A stretch of 64,000 nucleotides of DNA from a virus, in the IMG/VR virus record IMGVR_UViG_3300034782_000062, positions 118,771 through 182,770 of that record. The stretch is one strand, 5' to 3'. A model generated the notes under the pieces. The model saw only the letters and a program-made list of their open reading frames with translations. It was not told where the DNA came from and searched no databases. This document shows, piece after piece, positions 59,366 through 59,982 of this stretch; the stretch's first letter is position 1; the number at the start of each line of letters is the position of its first letter. The position numbers and the translations under genes were made by a program.

Positions 59366-59506
59366 CGGCTGAATGCCTAGTAGGGATTACATTGGACTAT
59401 GGATCCCGTAGTTGCAGGTTCGAATCCTGCCCACGCCGCTCTTATGGCGTGGTAGCCCAATTGGTAGAGGCGCGTAAACTGTTTCTCTACGCCTTTTTGT
59501 CAGCCG
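59366..59506 (+). ncRNA. Predicted Y RNA 8 carrying a complete permuted tRNA
   Basis: P1 CGGCTGA/TCAGCCG, P2 GTAGGGA/TCTCTAC. Between them: 3' tRNA part (from GGACTATGGATCCCG to T arm GCAGG TTCGAAT CCTGC and acceptor CCACGCC), linker GCTCTTAT, then 5' part (GGCGTGG, TA, D arm GCCC..GGC, ending GCG). Joined 5'-to-3', the parts make a full cloverleaf with anticodon stem CGGGA/TCCCG and loop CTATGGA, the break lying between positions 28 and 29. Confidence 0.78.
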
Positions 59507-59509
59507 ATT

Positions 59510-59581
59510 GCCGGTGAAGCCAAAGTGGTGCGGCGCCACGTTGCCAACGTGGAGAAGTGGGTTCAACTCCCATCACCGGCT
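59510..59581 (+). tRNA. tRNA-Gly(GCC)
   Basis: Acceptor GCCGGTG/CACCGGC, anticodon loop TTGCCAA on CCACG/CGTGG, T loop TTCAACT, discriminator T with encoded CCA. Confidence 0.94.
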
Positions 59582-59584
59582 CCA

Positions 59585-59646
59585 GCCCGAATGCTTGTCG
59601 TGAGTACATTAGGGTATGTATACCTCACGGCGTTTCCTTGTCGGGC
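59585..59646 (+). ncRNA. Predicted Y RNA 9 (minimal)
   Basis: P1 GCCCGA/TCGGGC, ATGC, P2 CGTGAG/CTCACG, TACATT, right CCTTG. The smallest element at 62 nt, with only a short hairpin above P2 and no tRNA-like payload. Confidence 0.75.
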
Positions 59647-59654
59647 AAAAATTC

Positions 59655-59982
59655 ATAGGCTGAATGCCCAGTGGGGAGTACATCGCATGCCAAGCGCGAG
59701 GCCCAGGTTCGATCCCTGGTCCCGTCTCAACGCCGGTCTCAGTGGAATGACCTCTGTAGGGCGGAAACGTGGTGGAAGGCGATGACTGATTTGATGGAAG
59801 TGCGATCGGCTTCTTTCTCATATCGATCGTTCGGAAGCTCCGTGATGAGCCCTTCACCGGGTTCAAGTCCCGGCGGCGTCGAATTTTCACTCGGTTCGAA
59901 ACCGAGCGCCGTGACTTTAGACGGGATGGTGTAGTGGTAGCACACGAAAACGTTCCTCTCTACGCCTTTCTTGTCAGCCTAT
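59655..59982 (+). ncRNA. Predicted Y RNA 10 carrying permuted tRNA-Gly(GCC)-like parts
   Basis: P1 ATAGGCTGA/TCAGCCTAT, P2 GTGGGGA/TCTCTAC. The left part CGCATGCCAAGCGCG leads to T arm CCAGG TTCGATC CCTGG and acceptor TCCCGTC; about 200 nt later the right part has acceptor GACGGGA, TG, D arm GTGT..GCAC and ACG. Joined, they give anticodon stem CGCGC/GCGCG with loop ATGCCAA, again broken between 28 and 29. The long linker contains two more T-arm-like hairpins. Confidence 0.72.

Follow-up and report, generated by a model that had tools for sequence, protein, structure and literature searches.

Bacterial YrlA RNA is a circular permutation of a tRNA (PMC11472068; PDB 6CU1) and has been described as a mimic of the D, T and acceptor arms of tRNA, which in its classical form already acts as a tRNA mimic without an anticodon arm (PMC8394870). 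A role as bait for an anticodon nuclease has been proposed for YrlA, with a module that was not described as having an anticodon loop (PMC7790460), while phage tRNAs have been proposed to evade anticodon nucleases through mutations in the anticodon loop (PMC10264068). We analysed a stretch of 64,000 nucleotides (nt) from the IMG/VR virus record IMGVR_UViG_3300034782_000062 (positions 118,771 to 182,770, hereafter the window), which is the final 64 kb of this 182,770-base record and encodes a homologue of the Ro60/Rsr protein together with a series of Y RNAs. Two of these, Y8 and Y10, contain a complete tRNA in circularly permuted order, including the anticodon arm. Such a permuted tRNA-bearing Y RNA is a real, conserved and apparently little-noticed tRNA mimic, which occurs across phages and bacterial RNA-repair operons. 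The reading that we favour, with about even confidence, is that these RNAs are tRNA mimics which are tethered to Ro and present an anticodon loop, probably as bait for anticodon enzymes.

Y8 and Y10 contain complete circularly permuted tRNAs

The effector module of Y8 (59366-59507, + strand; outer stem GGCTGAATGC..GTCAGCC, Y 5' motif GGGATTACATT) is a complete permuted tRNA. The part corresponding to tRNA positions 29-73 comes first (59394-59438, + strand) and reads GGA, the loop CTATGGA with anticodon ATG, TCCCG, the variable loop TAGTT, the T arm GCAGGTTCGAATCCTGC, the 3' acceptor strand CCACGCC and G73; after 7 nt it is followed by positions 1-28 (59446-59474, + strand), with the 5' acceptor strand GGCGTGG, TA, the D arm GCCCAATTGGTAGAGGC, G at position 26 and CG at positions 27-28. 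Y10 (59657-59979, + strand; outer stem GGCTGA/TCAGCC, Y motif GGGGAGTACAT) has the same arrangement, with positions 29-73 at 59684-59727 (+ strand; CGC, the loop ATGCCAA with anticodon GCC, GCGCG, AGGC, the T arm CCAGGTTCGATCCCTGG, the 3' acceptor strand TCCCGTC and the glycine discriminator U73) and positions 1-28 at 59920-59946 (+ strand; the 5' acceptor strand GACGGGA, TG, the D arm GTGTAGTGGTAGCAC, A at position 26 and CG). The two acceptor strands of Y10 are separated by a 192-nt insert in the acceptor loop (59728-59919, + strand), which contains two T-arm-like hairpins (CCGGGTTCAAGTCCCGG and CTCGGTTCGAAACCGAG) and in which ARAGORN found no tRNA, with or without an intron allowed.

In both RNAs the acceptor stem is fully Watson-Crick paired (7/7), and the anticodon stem (CGGGA/TCCCG in Y8, CGCGC/GCGCG in Y10) is broken between positions 28 and 29. 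On inspection, this junction, at which a circularly permuted tRNA gene would have a bulge-helix-bulge motif for splicing, is flanked by the unpaired TACATT and TAAACTG of the Y stem. The Y stem is formed from the paired 5' and 3' ends and carries the conserved internal motif AATGC..GGGAYTACAT / TTGTCAGCC in Y8 as well as in Y10. The assignment of the tRNA parts is supported by ARAGORN, which called the rejoined sequences as tRNA-His(AUG) for Y8 and tRNA-Gly(GCC) for Y10. A preliminary description of this DNA had proposed whole tRNAs with the 3' part first, 5-bp (base pair) anticodon stems with a common break at 28/29, and a glycine GCC anticodon in Y10, all of which is borne out here; its claim of perfect cloverleaves goes a little too far, as the D stem of Y8 has 3 bp and a C13/A22 mismatch.

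The anticodon arm is conserved in phages and bacteria

Close relatives of this phage were not found by single-protein searches of IMG/VR and GTDB genomes, nor by megablast against phages, and relatives were sought instead with DNA patterns of the Y motif. Viral contigs and one genome per bacterial species were scanned with these patterns, and subsequently with our own scanner for a permuted T arm, acceptor and D arm, giving 140 Y-associated modules; the pattern scans favoured hairpin-bearing copies, and the prevalence in this set is therefore not unbiased. After filtering for hairpin room, 68 modules had a 5/5 anticodon stem and the 28/29 break, and of these full modules 26 come from 20 viral loci and 42 from 38 bacterial ones. 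When modules were selected by hairpin room only and not by pairing, the 5/5 stem was present in 26/42 viral and 40/62 bacterial modules, compared to shuffle means of 0.65 and 1.26, respectively. Similarly, positions 27-28 pair with 42-43 in 37/42 viral and 53/62 bacterial modules, against 11.7 and 16.2 after re-dealing the halves. In loci from the one viral scan that did not target the hairpin, 11 of 26 modules were full. The loop measures 7 nt in 65 cases, with each of the other sizes from 3 to 11 nt represented at most twice. All five anticodon-stem pairs show compensatory changes in 41 aligned modules, an alignment that was picked for pairing and in which only the diversity of pair types is informative. 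Independent drift of the two halves, which the preliminary description had named as grounds for refutation, is thus not what is seen: the complete module is found again, with covariation, in numerous viral contigs, in named phages and in bacteria.

Loose scanning of tRNA arrays could join halves of different tRNAs by chance, and tandem linear tRNAs did yield some spurious permuted matches in such a scan. That Y8 and Y10 are artefacts of this kind is hardly credible and is already contradicted by the data: the halves lie inside one Y stem and pair 5/5 and 7/7, Y8 and Y10 are the only permuted tRNAs in the 17-kb tRNA and Y RNA region whose 7-bp acceptor stem is perfect, and 60 dinucleotide shuffles of that region gave none. 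Furthermore, chimeras of unrelated halves mostly fail, with about one third called as tRNAs, as opposed to 68/68 rejoined full modules called with the expected anticodon.

Two other arrangements were seen in the survey. Loci L034, L038, L083, L014, L149 and L152 have Y RNA modules that are permuted class-II tRNAs, in which the variable arm is long and the D arm Leu-like; the upper anticodon stem is missing in most of them. At L252, L264, L276 and the sphingomonad loci, individual genomes contain arrays of several Y modules that differ in anticodon, and the triplet varies between relatives while the stems stay constant.

Anticodon loops follow the rules of tRNAs

The loop has the features of a tRNA anticodon loop, with U33 in 61/68, R37 in 66/68 and A38 in 51/68 full modules. 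The preliminary description is also supported in that these tRNA-like modules of Y RNAs keep the anticodon arm, at one conserved break. G37 goes together with G36 in 12/15 cases (Fisher p=9e-8, or 9e-7 without duplicates), an association that is a rule of true tRNAs. A34 is rare, with four of its eight cases being ACG, the usual A34 anticodon in bacteria. The arm CCT-ATGCGGA-AGGAG and an ACCA sequence are invariant among the Mycobacterium phages Myrna, Phabba and ScoobyDoobyDoo, in which compensating changes accompany the divergence of the T, D and acceptor arms. The sphingomonads have the opposite pattern, with a constant GGCGA/TCGCC stem and a varying triplet (GUA, GUC, GUU, UCC).

These patterns bear on the view that the arm only completes the structure, in which case it would shape or stabilise the module (through the elbow, stacking, or docking on PNPase or another tRNA-binding protein) with a loop that is not read by enzymes. 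The varying sphingomonad triplets on constant arms are as expected if the fold alone matters, and classical YrlA is a tRNA mimic without this arm (PMC8394870). We nevertheless consider this view doubtful, as U33, R37, A38 and the G36-G37 rule are conserved beyond the needs of a generic hairpin, the 7-nt loop is nearly exclusive, and the triplet is invariant in the Myrna relatives while the other arms change.

Linkage to Ro and RNA-repair genes

The presumed protein partner of the Y RNAs in the window is a Ro60/Rsr homologue with TROVE and vWA domains (55947-57533, + strand), of which the product matches PDB 2nvo (Rsr) over residues 14-515 (E=1e-26) and the Pfam family vWA_Ro60 (3e-14). Going by this protein, the nearest named phage is Myxococcus phage Mx1 (43.6% to its counterpart), for which the 17.6 kb surrounding the Ro gene yielded no permuted module of the Y type. 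Full modules are located upstream of the Ro genes of the cultured phages Myrna, Phabba, ScoobyDoobyDoo, I3, Sparky, Zooman and Pumpernickel, and the I3 module matches 196 mycobacteriophage records, 167 of these at at least 99%. Proximity to a Ro60/Rsr (TROVE) gene, a feature of YrlA, is thus found here, in named phages and in bacteria. The bacterial loci that were read in detail (L323, L324 and L326) have the order rtcR, then rsr - Y RNAs - rtcB - rtcA, with gene names assigned from open reading frame sequences and Pfam matches, and RtcB is encoded in 28/29 bacterial genomes searched.

A rival explanation is that the modules are permuted tRNA genes. RNase P and a 3' nuclease would then cut both acceptor ends, and the product would be either a two-piece tRNA held by the Y stem or, once the Y stem has been excised and the ends ligated, a normal continuous tRNA to be charged and used. 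The RtcB ligase is encoded adjacent to the modules at bacterial loci, and this phage has a short Rnl2-like RNA ligase (28609-29259) with a KLDGSN motif, slightly below the Pfam cut-off; a T4-type Rnl1 was looked for in G000 and not found. NCCA directly follows N73 in 24/68 full modules compared to 9/72 modules without the full arm (78/192 for linear tRNAs at the same loci), ACCA is invariant in the Myrna group, and Y10 is consistent with glycine in that it unites U73, C35 and C36 with the anticodon GCC. Against these stand the 10/68 acceptor stems closed by stable GNRA or UNCG tetraloops, the Leu, Ser or Tyr anticodons on class-I bodies in 8/68, the Arg anticodons mostly lacking A20, and the AUG anticodon of Y8, which is of the A34 type not normally used in bacteria. 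In addition, linear tRNA-Gly(GCC) and tRNA-His(GTG) are both already present in this genome, RtcB was found in only 1/20 viral records, and there is no known bacterial splicing endonuclease for a cut at 28/29. We therefore judge this explanation improbable. For the class as a whole, the tetraloop-closed acceptors, the Leu/Ser/Tyr anticodons on class-I bodies and the AUG of Y8 argue against the suggestion in the preliminary description that permuted tRNAs are still made. These features lead us to prefer mimicry in which the anticodon loop takes part, and processing may occur in the NCCA subset. A function of the module as decoder of rare codons for the phage is unsupported, because linear tRNAs of the same amino-acid specificity are present.

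Organisation of the Y RNA cluster and origin of the modules

The window encodes approximately 30 linear tRNAs, and 13 copies of the Y RNA 5' motif AATGC..GGGAYTACAT are interspersed with the tRNA genes. A linear tRNA-Gly(GCC), whose anticodon is duplicated by Y10, lies between Y8 and Y10 (59510-59584, + strand). By internal comparison, the Y RNA at 62291-62427 (+ strand) is of the classical YrlA type, with a permuted T arm, acceptor and D arm and no anticodon hairpin, and the one at 59180-59290 (+ strand) has only a T-arm-like hairpin, which makes up a graded series within one genome from the full module via one without the anticodon hairpin to the T arm only.

Such a series would be expected if Y RNAs repeatedly captured neighbouring tRNA sequence, with young full modules decaying to classical YrlA and the arm being a functionless relic, as would the interspersed Y RNA and tRNA genes and the existence of Leu-like modules with a long variable arm. 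We regard this as quite improbable given the purifying pattern in the Myrna group, the covariation and shared break point in distantly related taxa, the 196 mycobacteriophage records that carry the module, mostly at high identity, and the lack of any linear tRNA here to which Y8 or Y10 is especially near: no parent stands out among the linear tRNAs of the same genome, these being no closer to Y8 and Y10 than unrelated tRNAs are to each other. With regard to the earlier proposal that the modules arose by permutation of real tRNA genes, derivation from real tRNAs is plausible, as suggested by the encoded NCCA (24/68), the pairing of U73 with a glycine anticodon that Y10 and L245 both have, and the Leu-like versions with a long variable arm. 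The permutation itself is no evidence of a recent event, since circularly permuted order is the standard YrlA topology (PMC11472068).

A gene resembling tRNA-Gly(TCC), with an unusual D arm (59288-59364), scored 49.5 bits with Rfam and was not called by ARAGORN, and a gene for a SpoU-family RNA methyltransferase (60247-60876) is located just downstream of the Y RNA cluster. Four independent Y RNAs have ACGGTCCTAAGGTAGCGA directly after the Y 5' motif (window 49937-50146; L161, - strand, ~8220; L341, 436; L301, - strand, ~7015). This sequence belongs to domain IV of 23S rRNA, where it is universally conserved (helix 69/71), and is also the I-CeuI site; the four RNAs, three of them in viral contigs... 

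A proposed Ro-tethered tRNA mimic

On the reading that we favour, Y8 and Y10 are YrlA-like Y RNAs with an entire tRNA as effector module. The Y stem, which would bind Ro, interrupts the anticodon stem at 28/29 and a linker closes the acceptor stem, the DNA thus reading the 3' part and then the 5' part. Once transcribed, as we infer for Y8 and Y10, the RNA would adopt a tRNA fold in which the anticodon arm is complete, with the Y stem as its anchor on the Ro protein of the phage, and would, unlike classical YrlA, display the anticodon loop as well. It would thereby bind or decoy enzymes acting on the anticodon arm, i.e. host anticodon nucleases and possibly tRNA-modifying or repair enzymes, and protect or survey the tRNA pool in infection or RNA damage. 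A full anticodon arm would fit the bait role better than the classical module does.

Several observations weigh against this reading. Y8 scores 36 bits with the Rfam YrlA family RF02553, for which the gathering cut-off is 69, and Y10 was not reported by the Rfam search; because this cut-off is not reached, we call both YrlA-like variants and not members of the family. The 192-nt insert makes Y10 the less convincing of the two, and single-sequence minimum free energy folding does not recover its cloverleaf and gets the anticodon arm of Y8 wrong. Minimum free energy folding is often uninformative for tRNAs. Salmonella YrlA was not cut by the RecA-dependent nuclease (PMC7790460), and the anticodon loops could be retained for structure only.

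A bolder version is that the modules form a widespread class, in phages and RNA-repair operons, of Ro-bound complete split tRNAs, in which the acceptor of the NCCA copies would be opened for charging or sensing, and the anticodon loop would do the work, as a tRNA-shaped trap for or reporter of anticodon damage, wired to RtcB repair; we consider this distinctly unlikely. For the mimics as a whole, the conserved arm and the tRNA loop rules, in rsr-rtcBA operons and tRNA-rich phages, point to a process in which tRNA anticodons are damaged and repaired as the target. The anticodon-arm modules touch on the question of what the tRNA mimicry of YrlA is for, and make it testable in an ordinary system, with Myrna or I3 on Mycobacterium smegmatis. 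They also show that tRNA-like Y RNAs are able to hold every tRNA arm with 28/29 as single fixed entry point.

Comparison with known systems

Y8 and Y10 share with YrlA (RF02553; PDB 6CU1) the end-to-end Y stem, the circularly permuted tRNA order of T arm, acceptor hairpin and D arm, and the location near Ro60/Rsr, whereas in the RF02553 consensus no more than a short closing stem takes the place of their complete anticodon arm. Accordingly, the family model aligns with Y8 over its full length with the anticodon hairpin as a 16-nt insert. The full modules in L323, L324, L326, L327 and the phage loci are not listed by Rfam under RF02553, and the classical copy in L325 is (74.5 bits). The anticodon arm apparently goes beyond the available descriptions of YrlA and the Rfam family, although the primary YrlA literature may already describe it.

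The permuted tRNA genes of algae and Thermofilum (PMC3978253) likewise have the 3' half first, a linker at the acceptor end and a full cloverleaf when rejoined. They are broken at sites such as 37/38, whereas the Y modules break at 28/29, are flanked by a Y stem of the Ro-binding type, and are sometimes closed by a tetraloop at the acceptor; bacteria are not known to have a tRNA-splicing endonuclease. Two-piece tmRNA from permuted genes (mentioned in PMC10085705) also has a permuted order and a segment between the acceptor strands, which is removable in tmRNA, while the Y modules lack a reading frame and have a Y stem in place of the tmRNA domains. Finally, the linear phage tRNAs that evade anticodon nucleases (PMC10264068) are, like the Y modules, phage-encoded with loops that may face host nucleases, but these are canonical decoding tRNAs, whereas Y8 and Y10 are Ro-linked mimics.
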